From: an uncultured Arenicella sp.
Lineage (GTDB): Bacteria; Pseudomonadota; Gammaproteobacteria; Arenicellales; Arenicellaceae
Length of the DNA: 64,000 nucleotides
NCBI GenBank assembly: GCA_938048185.1
Contig: CALIVT010000009.1
Coordinates: 62,001-126,000 of the forward strand
Reading direction: 5' to 3'
The notes under the pieces are model-generated. The model saw only the letters and a list, made by a program, of their open reading frames with translations, made no database searches and was not told the DNA's origin. Position 1 is the stretch's first letter; the number at the start of each line of letters is the position of its first letter. Below, piece by piece: positions 57,965-63,249 of the stretch. The position numbers and the translations under genes were made by a program.

Positions 57965-59221
57965 TTAAAAACTCCCTCTTAGGCCACGATACACTTGGAT
58001 GTCAACCTCCTGTTGACTGTTTCGCCGATCTCGCTGTGTATTCTTTTCATCCGCGTAAGCTTTAGCGCGTGCCACCACCATATCGGCTTTGTGCGCGTAG
58101 CGGCCCTTTTGTAACGAATTTTGAGTTAATAAATAGGCTTTGTGCAAATCTTTGAGGGCCGCGACATAATTGTTTTTTAGTTGGCGAATGCGGCTTCTAA
58201 GTTCGTAGAATTTTGGATCAGCGTCATGCAGCCTAATCGCGCGTTTGATGGCTTTATTGGCGATACGATATTCGCGGTCATCAAATGCTTTTTGCGCTAA
58301 GCGATATTGCATATAAGGGTTTCTAAGGCGCGCTCCGAGTGCGCGTTTTCCGAAATAATTGGCCCTAGAAACGTTCCCTCTATTTCGGTAAATTCGCTCT
58401 AAATTACTCGACGCCAAACTGTTTTGATCGCTAATTGAATAAGCGTTTAGGTAAATTTTTTCTGCCATTTCTATGTTACCGACACGTTTGAATGCAGCCC
58501 CTAAATTGATCCACATATCTGCATTTTCGGGGAACATCGATACTGATAGCTTGAGGTAATGAAACGCGGCACTCATGTTGCCCGCTTGCAGTTCTTGTAC
58601 ACCGATATTACTGAACAGCAATGCGACGCCATGTTCTTTGTTGATAATTCGTTGTGGAAAGCCTGGGCGATATTCTTCCAGCGCTAAATCAAATATTTGA
58701 GTATGTCTTGGTGTCTTATAGACCACATTAACGTGCCGATAAAATACCAAATCTTCGAGCTCGTCCTCGCCCCAAATGTCGGGTAGGTCAACCTGGTTTA
58801 GCTCTAGCTCAATATCGAGCTCGGCAGCGAGTTCTATTAGCAACAACGAGAAGCTTAGACAGTTTGCTCGACCTTCGGAAAAGGCTTGTGAGGGTGTAAG
58901 GTTTGCCTCGATATCATACTGCATGTTATGACCATCTGGGCGCATTAGCCAGCGAGCCAGCTTGCTGGCCGATCGATGCTTACTCGACGACTTGAAGTTG
59001 GCGCGCACCATATTACGAACATTGTCCCCCAAATAAAATATCGAGTCAGCCCTATGACTGTGTTCGTCTGGCAAGGACAATTTATAGTTAACGATAGACG
59101 CAAAATCTTTATCAGTATGGTCCAATTTTGGCGTGCTGGTGCAGCCGGTAACTAAGGCGCCGCCGCTGATCGCGATTGTCAGCAGTGCGAGCGTCTGCAG
59201 AGTTCTTAAAATGCTACGCAT
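57965..59221 (-). CDS. Lipoprotein with transglutaminase-like and TPR domains
   Basis: The ATG at 59221 has a near-perfect AAGGAGG box and is preferred to the open frame upstream. The 418-residue product has a lipobox (GALVTGC, Cys27). Residues about 100-190 look like a transglutaminase-like cysteine-protease core: Cys121 in EGRANCLSFSLLL, His163 in FYRHVNVVY and Asp178 in QIFDLALEEY. Then come about six tetratricopeptide-type repeats (for example MWINLGAAFKRVGNIEMAEKIY). It is therefore a membrane-attached protein, probably in the periplasm. The family is known in many gammaproteobacteria without a firm function. Confidence 0.85.
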   Translation of the reverse strand: MRSILRTLQTLALLTIAISGGALVTGCTSTPKLDHTDKDFASIVNYKLSLPDEHSHRADSIFYLGDNVRNMVRANFKSSSKHRSASKLARWLMRPDGHNMQYDIEANLTPSQAFSEGRANCLSFSLLLIELAAELDIELELNQVDLPDIWGEDELEDLVFYRHVNVVYKTPRHTQIFDLALEEYRPGFPQRIINKEHGVALLFSNIGVQELQAGNMSAAFHYLKLSVSMFPENADMWINLGAAFKRVGNIEMAEKIYLNAYSISDQNSLASSNLERIYRNRGNVSRANYFGKRALGARLRNPYMQYRLAQKAFDDREYRIANKAIKRAIRLHDADPKFYELRSRIRQLKNNYVAALKDLHKAYLLTQNSLQKGRYAHKADMVVARAKAYADEKNTQRDRRNSQQEVDIQVYRGLRGSF

Positions 59222-59308
59222 AACAACCTCCTTCACACTAGAGCACCACCTTACTATAGATATTGCCCTGCGGGGAGTCGTTTTAACCGATAAAATCAAG
59301 GCGAAAAA

Positions 59309-59334
59309 AAGGCCAAGGGCGAACCCTTGGCCTT
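59309..59334 (-). terminator. Strong terminator after the subtilase gene
   Basis: On the minus strand an 11-base perfect stem AAGGCCAAGGG / CCCTTGGCCTT closes a TTCG tetraloop and is followed by five further T residues. It ends the subtilase transcript before the TPR gene. Confidence 0.95.
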
Positions 59335-59360
59335 GCTACTACTAACTAGATCGAGTCAGA

Positions 59361-62300
59361 TTACTGCGTATTTACGTCTAGAATCGTTCTATCAATTTCA
59401 CCTTCATCGTCTTGATGCGAAATAATTCCAAGGTATCGACTGCCCGCGTTTAAGCCTTGATAGTCTAGAGTGATATTAGTAGAAACACCTAAACTGGCTG
59501 AACCTGGAGCACCCACCGTGGTATTACCGTTATCACCGGCAACTAAACTTAACCACAATGTATAGCTAACCGTGTTGTCAGCCGAGCCAGCAGCAAAGAA
59601 ATCGACGACAAACACATAGCCACCTGCAGCCGGGTTCTCTAAATCGATGGTTTCGTTGCTTGTTGGGCCACCGCTTGAGGCGATTTGCGTAATCTCACCG
59701 AAGCTCTCGCAATCAGTCACGCTGAAGACGCGCATATCAAGGTCGTCTTGACCTGGAGTCGATGTGTCTTCATCGAACAATGCCATGCGAATATGGTCGG
59801 ACGCCGGTAAGTCAAAGCAAACCAAGTTGAGCTGGTTTTCCGTGTCTACGGAAATTGTATCAGCAATGGCAGCCGACTCGGAAAGACCTGCAAAGCCCGC
59901 GTTATAGACTCCTTCGTAACCGAAAGCAACGGGTACGGTAATGTTGCCACTCGCCGTTGATGTACCGTCTGGAGACTCAATAATTACCGCTTGACTATCA
60001 ATTTCACTCTCAGTCGCTAGAGCAACGGGGCGCACCGCGATGGGGCTGCGAACTTCCTTAGCCATCCGGTTTTTACGGTGATGCCTGTTTCTATAGCCAT
60101 GTCGATAACCGTAAGCAAAGCTATAACGATGACCGTAATAGTCTTGGTCGGCTAAATAGCGATAACCACCGTTATAACCGCGGCCGTAGCCGTAATAGTA
60201 ATCACCATAAACGTAATACCCTACGTAGTAGAGGTAGCGATAAAAGCTACGACGTTTCTTCCCTCTCTCAACCCAGGTTACCGAACCGAACGCAAATTCA
60301 TTTAAGTTCGCGTCATCTTGCGCCGCAAACGAAATCGTGTAGTCGGCGGACTCGCCGGGGCGCAAACTCAAACGCCGTGGGCTTACTGTAACGTCTATCC
60401 CTTCTGGTGCGTCAACCACTGCTTTATAACGAGTAGCAGATTGACGACGGCGATAAGGGTTTTCCTCCGCGACACTTGTTACCGTTCTGGTAACAGTTTG
60501 AGTGCCGACCAATTCGCCAACACCAATCGATGGTAAATTAAGTTCACTGCCGTCAAACGAACGGCCTTCAAGTGCGAGGAAATCACACACCGCGTCGTCG
60601 ACTACTTGTACATTATTGCCGCATGAAAACGCAGCGTAGTCGCCCAAACTCGCGTCATACACCAAACCGGGTTCAAACGTGTCGTTGGGTACAACATGAC
60701 CGGCACCAATTTCAAATGGCGTGGCTGGCGCAGTGCTAAATTGAGCGGTTAGATCTTGACGTGCGGTGGTCATCATCGCCGAGCGAGCCATGGCAGGCGT
60801 CCAGGTCGGATGCGCTTGTTTGATAAGCGCTAAAACGCCTGCAACGTGTGGGCTTGAAAACGATGTACCACTGATAAATTGTTGCGAGTTAACACCGCTT
60901 GATCCGCGTGCCTCGTCCGCATTTTCGGTCGTGGTTTCGGCACTTAGAATATTGACACCGGGAGCAACAACGTCGGGCTTAATGATATCTAAGGCGCCGC
61001 CGTTAGGGCCGCGTGATGAAAAATCGACTACTTGATTTACCAAGGTAACTTGATTTTCACTGTCAAGCGTTACCGCTGCGCCCGTCACGTTAGCAAGCGC
61101 ATCACCGTCTTCGAAGCCAATCATTACACCGGCTATCGCACGCTCGGGAGCCAAGCCGCCCATTACAAATGGGTTTTGGCGATCTGGGGCGGTGCCATCG
61201 TTATACACAACTATCGCGGTTGCGCCAGCGGCTTCTGCATTCGCGTATTTATCGTCGAATCCGCAAGCACCGCGGATTACCAGCGCGATATTGCCGGCTA
61301 TTGCGTCAGCATTAGTAAGCGCTTCACAGCCATTGGCTGGCTCGGCAATCGCTACGCTACCTGAGATTGGGTCAATGTCGTTGAGTAATATTGGGCCTGC
61401 ACCTTCAACTGCAGTAACGGAGCCTGCTACAGATGCGGGCGCGTCAACTTGCAAGCCGAGTGCAAAATTTTGGTCGTCGTTAACCGCACCTACTGACGTG
61501 ATCCATGGCACTACTGCTGGAGAGCCAACAGTTTGAAGATCAGGACCAGAGTTACCGGCAGAGGTGGCAACGTGTACACCTGCATTCGCCGCAAACAAGA
61601 ATGCGATTGCATCTAAGCTACCGAAAGACGTTGATGATCCGCCAATTGAGAAGTTGATAACGTCAACGCCGTCAGCCACTGCTTGGTCAATCGCAGCCAT
61701 TGAGTCGGCATTGGCACAACCATCGTCTTCTTCATTGGCAGGGGTTGCTGGGTCATCCACTGCTGGGCCGTCCCAACACACCTTATAGGCGGCGATGCGT
61801 GCGCGTGGAGCAACGCCAGACATAACGTCTTCGCCAACTTCTTCGCCGTCAATAATTGCCTGCACGCCATAGTTTCCGGCCGCGTTCGAGGCGGCAGCTG
61901 AACCATGACCGTTGTCATCTCTAGCTGAGAGTGAAGAGCCTGCGGCAAGTGCTACCGCTGGATCGGCGCCGCGTAAAAAAGCGGCAGAAAAGCTGCGTGC
62001 GCCAAGAATTTTGTTGTTACACGTAAACGGCACGTCCAACGGGTTGAACGCGGTATTACCAAAGTCGCAGGTGTCTCCGCTCCAGCCTGAAGGCGGCGCG
62101 CCAAACGGGATCTTGCGACCACGGTCACCACGTTTTGGCGTTGGCACATCAGCAAAGCTTGGGTTTTCAGGGTCGATACCGGAGTCTAAAATACCGACAA
62201 TTACGTCTTCTCCGGTGTAGCCTTGGCGCCAAGATGAGAACCGGCCTCTATTCAGCTCGAGAAACTTGCGAGTGCTGTCGGTGTCCATTTGTTGCAACTC

Positions 62301-62768
62301 GTCTCGCGTGACTCGTAATACGTTTGGCTCGTTACGCATCAGCTCGGCTTCGGCTGCCGACATTGTTACTGCCATGCCGTTAAACGCAAGTGTGTATTCG
62401 TAGATCTTATTGCTTTTATCCACGCCACAGTTTTCGAGCGACTGATCGTGCATGTTGCCAAGAAATGCGCGATAACTCTGTACCGCGGAACTTTGCATAT
62501 TGATTTTCTGGCCGCTCTCGGGCTTAGTCGCAACAAGGGCGTTAGAGCCAGAAAAATTAAGTGCGGGCTGATCTTTGAATTGAACAATATAGACGTCGGC
62601 TTTACGTTTGACGGCAGTGGCCGCAGGGATCGAGCTGGCATTGTTGCTACTTGCGGCGCGACCTTGTTCGAGCACTGAGTTAGCGGCAAATGTGTTGCCT
62701 GCGGCAAGGGACACTAAGGCGCAAAAGCCGATGGTCGATACCTTGATTGATGAGATTATATTTCTCAT
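59361..62768 (-). CDS. Exported subtilisin-like protease (S8) with a tyrosine-rich insertion
   Basis: A 1135-residue subtilase. A signal peptide (to about residue 29) is followed by an I9 propeptide (about 57-155). The catalytic residues are Asp195 (GILDSGIDPENP), His288 (DDNGHGSAAAS) and Ser636 (ISGTSFSSPHVAG). A protease-associated domain (about 446-570) interrupts the catalytic domain. A fibronectin-like domain (from about 780) is split by residues 836-905, which contain 20 tyrosines in 50 positions. A beta-sandwich domain, like those of secreted proteases, fills the last 200 residues. It probably degrades proteins outside the cell. Two direct repeats lie upstream. Confidence 0.93.
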   Translation of the reverse strand: MRNIISSIKVSTIGFCALVSLAAGNTFAANSVLEQGRAASSNNASSIPAATAVKRKADVYIVQFKDQPALNFSGSNALVATKPESGQKINMQSSAVQSYRAFLGNMHDQSLENCGVDKSNKIYEYTLAFNGMAVTMSAAEAELMRNEPNVLRVTRDELQQMDTDSTRKFLELNRGRFSSWRQGYTGEDVIVGILDSGIDPENPSFADVPTPKRGDRGRKIPFGAPPSGWSGDTCDFGNTAFNPLDVPFTCNNKILGARSFSAAFLRGADPAVALAAGSSLSARDDNGHGSAAASNAAGNYGVQAIIDGEEVGEDVMSGVAPRARIAAYKVCWDGPAVDDPATPANEEDDGCANADSMAAIDQAVADGVDVINFSIGGSSTSFGSLDAIAFLFAANAGVHVATSAGNSGPDLQTVGSPAVVPWITSVGAVNDDQNFALGLQVDAPASVAGSVTAVEGAGPILLNDIDPISGSVAIAEPANGCEALTNADAIAGNIALVIRGACGFDDKYANAEAAGATAIVVYNDGTAPDRQNPFVMGGLAPERAIAGVMIGFEDGDALANVTGAAVTLDSENQVTLVNQVVDFSSRGPNGGALDIIKPDVVAPGVNILSAETTTENADEARGSSGVNSQQFISGTSFSSPHVAGVLALIKQAHPTWTPAMARSAMMTTARQDLTAQFSTAPATPFEIGAGHVVPNDTFEPGLVYDASLGDYAAFSCGNNVQVVDDAVCDFLALEGRSFDGSELNLPSIGVGELVGTQTVTRTVTSVAEENPYRRRQSATRYKAVVDAPEGIDVTVSPRRLSLRPGESADYTISFAAQDDANLNEFAFGSVTWVERGKKRRSFYRYLYYVGYYVYGDYYYGYGRGYNGGYRYLADQDYYGHRYSFAYGYRHGYRNRHHRKNRMAKEVRSPIAVRPVALATESEIDSQAVIIESPDGTSTASGNITVPVAFGYEGVYNAGFAGLSESAAIADTISVDTENQLNLVCFDLPASDHIRMALFDEDTSTPGQDDLDMRVFSVTDCESFGEITQIASSGGPTSNETIDLENPAAGGYVFVVDFFAAGSADNTVSYTLWLSLVAGDNGNTTVGAPGSASLGVSTNITLDYQGLNAGSRYLGIISHQDDEGEIDRTILDVNTQ
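60093..60242 (-). other. Tyrosine/glycine/arginine-rich coding insert
   Basis: Codes for residues 843-892 of the subtilase. Twenty of fifty residues are tyrosine, the rest mostly Gly, Arg, His and Asp, with YYVGYYVYGDYYYGYGRGY as its core. Flanking sequence reads GSVTWVERGKKRR on one side and KEVRSPIAV on the other, which together look like one strand-turn-strand of the fibronectin-like domain in related proteases. Confidence 0.85.
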
Positions 62769-63249
62769 AGTTTTGGTTCTCCGTTTAAATATGGTTAGTT
62801 GAACAGCACAACCAAAATTAATAGGGCGGTTGATCGTTCAAAGTTGTGAGCTTGGAGAAAGCGCTTTAAAACGCATCACGAAAGGCTTTCAGAAAAACTA
62901 ATGGCAATAGCGTTTGCAACTAATGGCAATAGTGTTTCTAAAAGAATTATCGAATAAAGGTATAGAGGAAGGTAAACAGTGAATCGTAGATACCAAAAAA
63001 AGTTGCGTGGAATGGCACGCGTTGGGTAGCAAAAATCACACACCAGAACGCTCAGAACAAGAAAACACTTGTTTCGAGCCTAACTGATACTTGTTTACTT
63101 TCCCCTACCCAATCTTCTCTAAACACTGCGGGGAGCGGCGTTTAGAGCTTTTACGTTCTTTCAAGAACAAATTCACTGTAGACATGTTACTGCTTGTTAG
63201 GCGATACGGCAAGTATATAATTGACCGAAATTAACGATTGGAGAGAGTC
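62769..63249. other. Divergent intergenic region with a 20-base direct repeat
   Basis: A 481-base noncoding stretch between the divergent subtilase and VOC genes. It holds a nearly perfect direct repeat (62896-62915 and 62918-62937). A GGAGAGAG ribosome binding site precedes the VOC start. I see no clear promoter consensus and no frame of interest. Confidence 0.6.
62896..62937. repeat. Two 20-base direct repeats, period 22
   Basis: AACTAATGGCAATAGCGTTT and AACTAATGGCAATAGTGTTT differ at one base. The period of 22 bases is about two helical turns, so a protein could bind both on one face. They lie 128 bases upstream of the subtilase start. Confidence 0.8.

Follow-up and report, generated by a model that had tools for sequence, protein, structure and literature searches.

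A tyrosine-rich FG-loop insert in the Fn3 domain of a predicted secreted subtilase from an uncultured Arenicella species is probably a sticky anchor and not a sequencing error

The stretch analysed here (the window) comprises 64,000 nucleotides of contig CALIVT010000009.1 from an uncultured Arenicella sp., and carries on its minus strand the gene of a subtilase whose features are collected in Table 1. From its sequence, the enzyme belongs to an ordinary protease family: it is a cucumisin-type subtilase, predicted to be secreted and proteolytic. The catalytic Asp, His and Ser and the oxyanion Asn are all present (D195, H288, S636 and N406), of which H288, N406 and S636 are invariant in alignment A1, while D195 is present in the window protein. 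An Inhibitor_I9 propeptide, a PA domain inside the S8 domain and an fn3_6 domain after it complete the architecture, with all Pfam matches above their cut-offs, and the N-terminus, judged by eye, reads as a putative Sec signal peptide. By profile and fold, the closest solved structures are 7eox, SBT3 (3i6s and 3i74) and cucumisin (3vta and 4yn3). These plant cucumisin-type subtilases (SBT3, cucumisin and the Euphorbia protease 7eox) share the same S8, PA and fn3_6 architecture, whereas the bacterial enzyme has about 200 additional C-terminal residues. The alignments to 7eox and 3i6s stop at the TW strand, and because just 12 and 18 residues of chain remain beyond it, there is no comparable insert in either. 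Directly downstream of the subtilase (window 57965–59227, minus strand) lies a putative lipoprotein whose TPR matches fall short of the Pfam cut-offs. A search of window positions 59300–63000 gave no RNA element at gathering score under the insert.

Table 1. Features of the subtilase gene, in window coordinates
Feature	Position	Strand	Basis
Predicted secreted subtilase, 1135 aa, intact	59361..62768	(-)	Single open frame (62768-59361)
Inhibitor_I9 propeptide, residues ~58-155	62304..62597	(-)	Pfam PF05922
Peptidase_S8 catalytic domain, residues 186-674	60747..62213	(-)	Pfam PF00082, 161.4 bits
PA domain within S8, residues 470-558	61095-61361	(-)	Pfam PF02225
fn3_6 domain, profile match 742-838	60255..60545	(-)	Pfam PF17766, 72.3 bits; strands from AlphaFold
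Lengthened BC loop AEENPYRRRQSATR, residues 767-780	60429..60470	(-)	Alignment of fn3_6 domains
Tyr/Arg/Gly-rich FG-loop insert, residues 833-905, 73 aa	60054..60272	(-)	Alignment and AlphaFold
Strand G, VRSPIAVRPV, where Fn3 resumes past the insert	60024..60053	(-)	Alignment and AlphaFold

The fn3_6 profile match ends just within a tyrosine-rich insert that lies between FGSVTW and VRSPI. A sequence-only reading had placed a tyrosine-rich insertion in this fibronectin-like domain at 60051–60262; the insertion itself is borne out, and its bounds prove slightly larger (Table 1). In the insert there are 20 Tyr, 12 Arg, 11 Gly, 4 Lys and 4 His, and K/R outnumber D/E by 11. A single run of 50 residues takes in exactly 20 Tyr, as many as are spread over the other 1062 residues of the subtilase. 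With the tyrosine frequency of the rest of the protein, the binomial probability is 9e-22 per 50-residue stretch and 9e-19 over 1086 stretches, and when the insert DNA was shuffled 20,000 times by mononucleotide, the mean was 2.7 Tyr and the maximum 10. When Y, W, H, R, K and G were counted per 30 residues, the insert reached 24, and the runner-up among 53 window ORFs of at least 120 aa reached 17. Control ORFs of at least 150 aa came from the same genome (236 in 320 kb) and from the sister species G015 (319 in 400 kb); their maxima were 19 such residues per 30 and, for Tyr, 9 in 50, as compared with 24 and 20 in the insert. The composition of the insert is thus far outside chance. Tyrosine is encoded by 11 TAT and 9 TAC codons, all six Arg codons are used, and the motifs GRGY, GYR and HGY occur.

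Several artefactual and mobile origins were considered. The possibility that a pair of frameshifts had created the insert, raised beforehand as the outcome that would undo the observation, is contradicted by the two other minus-strand frames, interrupted by 3 and 8 stops in the region of about 60040–60280, and by the in-frame inserts of two syntenic orthologs (G006 and G015), whose ends VERGK and YRHGY are shared. No other ORF of at least 80 aa covers the insert on either strand in the ORF list of the window. Mobile elements can enter genes in frame, Rickettsia palindromic elements being an example. Within its own genome the insert DNA is found in full only once, the next match there being 20 bases long (E 0.09), and its best match in 17 congeners has an E of 0.0996; because of this single full copy and the weak matches elsewhere, the insert is not regarded as mobile. 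No head-to-tail DNA array was found at score 30, only short diverged repeats, and old, decayed duplications may be the origin of the insert. Since there is no tandem array, TAT and TAC are mixed and all six Arg codons are used, the sequence makes a fresh slippage product unlikely. Pfam gave no match on the insert, and the viral contigs searched contained no relative. A protein search of the 18 genomes of the genus set gave, beyond the window gene, nine matches with E values from 0.05 to 6.3, one of which is the loop of the G015 ortholog itself (E 6.3). As carriers of the insert, L070–L073, L075 and L076 were rejected on reading as sigma-factor-like ORFs or unrelated-looking frames; L074 and L077 are both interrupted by stops. 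The Tyr-rich core was found in none of the other genomes searched, and a full-text literature search, with most subscription journals outside its coverage, returned no report of such a loop.

The orthologs in G006 and G015 are syntenic with the window gene, the gene neighbours having been judged by reading ORFs, and by eye a protein resembling the TPR-like lipoprotein adjoins the subtilase in both. At the place of the insert, both carry a 33-residue loop, VERGKRKG(R/H)KHR(N/S)WWDWYRHGY(A/S)YGHDKKNARQ, which in G006 reads VERGKRKGRKHRNWWDWYRHGYAYGHDKKNARQ. The alignment of the window insert with the G006 loop scores 64.8, against 19.2 ± 7.8 in 2000 shuffles, none of which scored as high, and the resemblance lies at both ends. 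Because both ends match, the window loop would correspond to the 33-residue loop plus a Tyr-rich middle; it looks like an ancestral basic and aromatic loop whose middle has expanded into the Tyr-rich core. G001 of the same genus has a 32-residue FG loop with KGS repeats and is not syntenic with these three, while G009, which lacks the synteny and lies apart from them in the tree, has a short turn without an insert.

The G006 and G015 proteins are 91% identical, with a pS of 0.71 across the gene, which is near synonymous saturation. In the 33-codon FG loop, 14 synonymous differences over 18.3 sites stand against 3 nonsynonymous differences over 80.7 sites, giving a dN of 0.038; dN is 0.056 for residues 181–600 (the catalytic and PA region), 0.052 for the rest of the Fn3 region and 0.084 for the portion after Fn3. 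Since its dN is comparable to that of the catalytic region at near-saturated synonymous sites, the FG loop is both translated and constrained in these genomes. The codon counts show the 33-residue loop to be under purifying selection in two sister species, a test that covers this loop with few synonymous sites, the Tyr-rich core having no close ortholog. The neighbouring BC loop (14 codons), with a dN of 0.169 and a pS of 0.333 on nine sites, is by the same codon counts evolving faster than the FG loop.

The AlphaFold model of the window protein (47 sequences) has a pLDDT of 80.5, with residues 842–900 below 50 and the flanking strands 826–834 and 905–914 kept. The insert is therefore predicted to be a disordered loop on an intact Fn3 domain, in agreement with the earlier suggestion that the domain can fold around it. 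For G015 (40 sequences; pLDDT 78.4), the loop is likewise weakly predicted, apart from a short helix at residues 843–848, approximately WWDWYR. The two long loops are named BC and FG because the predicted strand order fits Fn3. In the Fn3 fold, the BC and FG loops share one pole. Among the 90 aligned regions, only L058 has Cys in BC and FG, a single one in each loop; this suggests that the two loops touch, possibly through a natural disulfide staple across the pole. We infer the adjacency of BC and FG in the window protein from the Fn3 topology together with this one Cys pair.

To place the loops among relatives, fn3_6 domains were collected more widely; they were found in 8 of the 18 genus genomes, in 10 of 369 genomes of a class sample, and in 138 of 296 genomes of the order of G226, where the domains sampled are parts of S8 proteases. 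Two further orders, that of G186 (1 genome) and that of G359 (24 genomes), gave no new relative. Ninety regions were aligned by HMM and alignment, and the sample is non-random because it consists of loci laid out by the search, mostly the best-scoring, and of 40 fetched matches that are mostly lower-scoring or of odd length. Removal of 12 rows (duplicates, other domains and cut regions, L008 included) left 78, of which 10 lack the Trp strand end, so that 68 domains were compared. The FG loop has 6 residues in 53 of the 68, which upholds the earlier remark that relatives have a short turn at this spot, and the BC loop has 4–6 residues in 54. FG loops of at least 10 residues occur in eight domains: the window protein (73), G006, G015 and L058 (33 each), G001 (32), L109 (29), L055 (14) and L116 (10). 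All eight have a BC loop of at least 8 residues, a length reached in 14 of the 68; six domains combine a long BC with a shorter FG, and in 54 neither is long. The BC and FG loops thus lengthen together (Fisher 4e-7 for 68 domains, a value that ignores relatedness and beneath which lie about three independent events). Bacterial fn3_6 subtilases share the same Fn3 family, and those with a long BC or FG are a minority, unlike most.

In a tree of 47 proteins, built from columns at least 70% filled and thereby excluding the inserts, the eight long-FG proteins fall in three separate parts: the window protein with G006, G015, G001 and L055; L109 with L116; and L058. Proteins with FG loops of 6 to 8 residues are found in the first two parts as well (L033 and L147 in the first; L110, L111, L115 and L117 in the second), and for this reason gains and losses of a long FG are indistinguishable there. 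Uniqueness, which the sequence-only reading had proposed to check among S8 proteases, holds for the Tyr-rich core among the genomes searched and fails for the insertion site, where sister species and other lineages carry shorter loops. That reading had noted neither the likely origin of the insert from a shorter, conserved loop of sister species, nor the second lengthened loop in the same domain, nor the longer form of the same loop in other lineages.

The long loops, 439 residues in all, contain 26% K/R, 13.9% F/W/Y and 4.6% His, as compared with 6.9%, 7.2% and 1.1% across the regions as a whole; leaving out the window protein changes the loop values to 26.7%, 10.8% and 4.5%. By sequence, they are basic on average and some are aromatic, the exceptions being the KGS repeats of G001, the DS repeats of L109 between Arg/Lys ends, the acidic start of L058 and the mixed BC loop of L117. 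In a second subtilase subfamily of the genus, the FG loop is basic with Trp and Tyr in G017, Gly/His/Arg-rich in G005, and short in G008 and G001. L011, a subtilase of another subfamily from G008, has a Lys/His-rich run, KHHKHKKAKHSHKGKHGKKDKKIKLKLKK, elsewhere in Fn3, before the GQSA strand. L112, L113, L114 and L120 have an extra insert in another fn3_6 loop (for example ARRSDYF...LPDF), before the F strand. The FG loop of L055 from G186, KHHGRYSVNRGRYS(V), resembles a small internal hairpin duplication in which GRYSV occurs twice, and possibly such a duplication is a first step of loop lengthening.

The insert is a real and unusual loop on a known protease family, and it is probably a sticky anchor. 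On this reading, the FG loop of Fn3 would be disordered and exposed at the surface and, with the neighbouring basic BC loop, would form a sticky pole acting as an exosite. By charge, cation–pi and stacking contacts, such a pole could retain the subtilase on a polyanion or on insoluble matter, be it nucleic acid, particulate protein, or polysaccharide of the cell surface or the extracellular space, and anchoring would concentrate cutting at the bound material. As modelled, a disordered Tyr/Arg tentacle beside a basic loop would be well suited to such a task. That the two loops form an anchoring exosite at the Fn3 pole is held tentatively, with slightly less than even confidence; the role and the class of ligand are both inferred. 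Of the functions suggested earlier, a surface-adhesion or substrate-binding loop is favoured here too, with a putative ligand, whereas dityrosine cross-linking and metal binding agree with the composition and gain no support past it. Against the anchor, loop contents vary (KGS, DS, acidic), the BC loop is less constrained than FG, in six of the 68 domains a long BC is paired with a short FG, short-FG proteins occur in the same clades, and G009 of the same genus does without an insert, though it is distant and non-syntenic. A broader proposal, which seems unlikely as a whole, is that the genus and its relatives have more than once rebuilt BC and FG with Arg, Tyr, Trp and His as a diversifying docking surface, a counterpart of the engineered Fn3 binder, the window species having a 73-residue Tyr/Arg "sticker" tentacle through which the protease could become concentrated or condensed on polyanionic matrices.

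The same diversity of contents (KGS, DS, Y/R/G and an acidic start) would be expected if the FG turn were a permissive site that tolerates any hydrophilic insert, the Tyr-rich one being neutral or nearly neutral and without a binding role. The predicted disorder, the short turns of relatives such as L033 and G009, and the lack of an ortholog of the Tyr-rich core in the genomes searched all fit this explanation, which is nevertheless considered somewhat unlikely: the 33-residue loop of G006 and G015 matches the catalytic region in conservation even though synonymous divergence is near saturation, recent slippage is unlikely given the missing tandem array and the mixed Tyr and Arg codons, and the basic bias recurs across separate lineages. 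In FUS-like proteins, Tyr and Arg act as stickers. With 73 residues that include 20 Tyr, 12 Arg and 11 Gly, and with its GRGY, GYR and HGY motifs, the insert could promote self-association into extracellular condensates, fibres or dityrosine-cross-linked coats, but the support for this is compositional, the sister-species loops are Trp/Lys-rich and far shorter, and Pfam found no oxidase or peroxidase among the three neighbouring proteins scanned, so that this seems distinctly improbable. With its 16 K/R and predicted disorder, the loop could instead be a processing or autolysis site of the secreted enzyme; this would not obviously account for the conservation between G006 and G015, and a cut should release nothing because both hairpin strands stay in the domain, making it a very unlikely role. 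The window loop has four His and 20 Tyr, and the G015 and G006 loops have four and three His; such numbers would suit a metal- or haem-binding loop, yet only two of the four window His pair with G006 His in the alignment and the KGS and DS loops have none, which leaves metal or haem binding highly improbable.

Non-catalytic anchoring domains are documented for other marine proteases: the PKD domain of deseasin MCP-01 and the PPC domain of VhaC are C-terminal collagen-binding domains, and aromatic and charged residues are held important for binding insoluble substrate (PMC8799719, PMC10821302). They differ from the present case in belonging to other domain families and in using surface residues and not a disordered loop (PMC8799719, PMC10821302). 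Engineered FN3 domains whose loops, including BC and FG, carry Arg and aromatic motifs are reported to enter cells (PMC13390933). These membrane translocation domains combine aromatic residues and Arg in BC/FG like the window protein, but they are designed and derived from human fibronectin domain 10 (PMC13390933). The likeness would be an analogy of layout only, and nothing here speaks for membrane crossing.

The interest of the finding rests on the conservation of the shorter loop and on the fact that BC and FG have lengthened together more than once. Fn3 domains of secreted bacterial enzymes are often regarded as spacers. If the anchor reading is true, this pole, which lengthens repeatedly, tends to be basic and partly aromatic and is conserved where testable, would be a natural parallel to the FN3-loop work of engineers, and it would point to where docking exosites in marine proteases could be sought.
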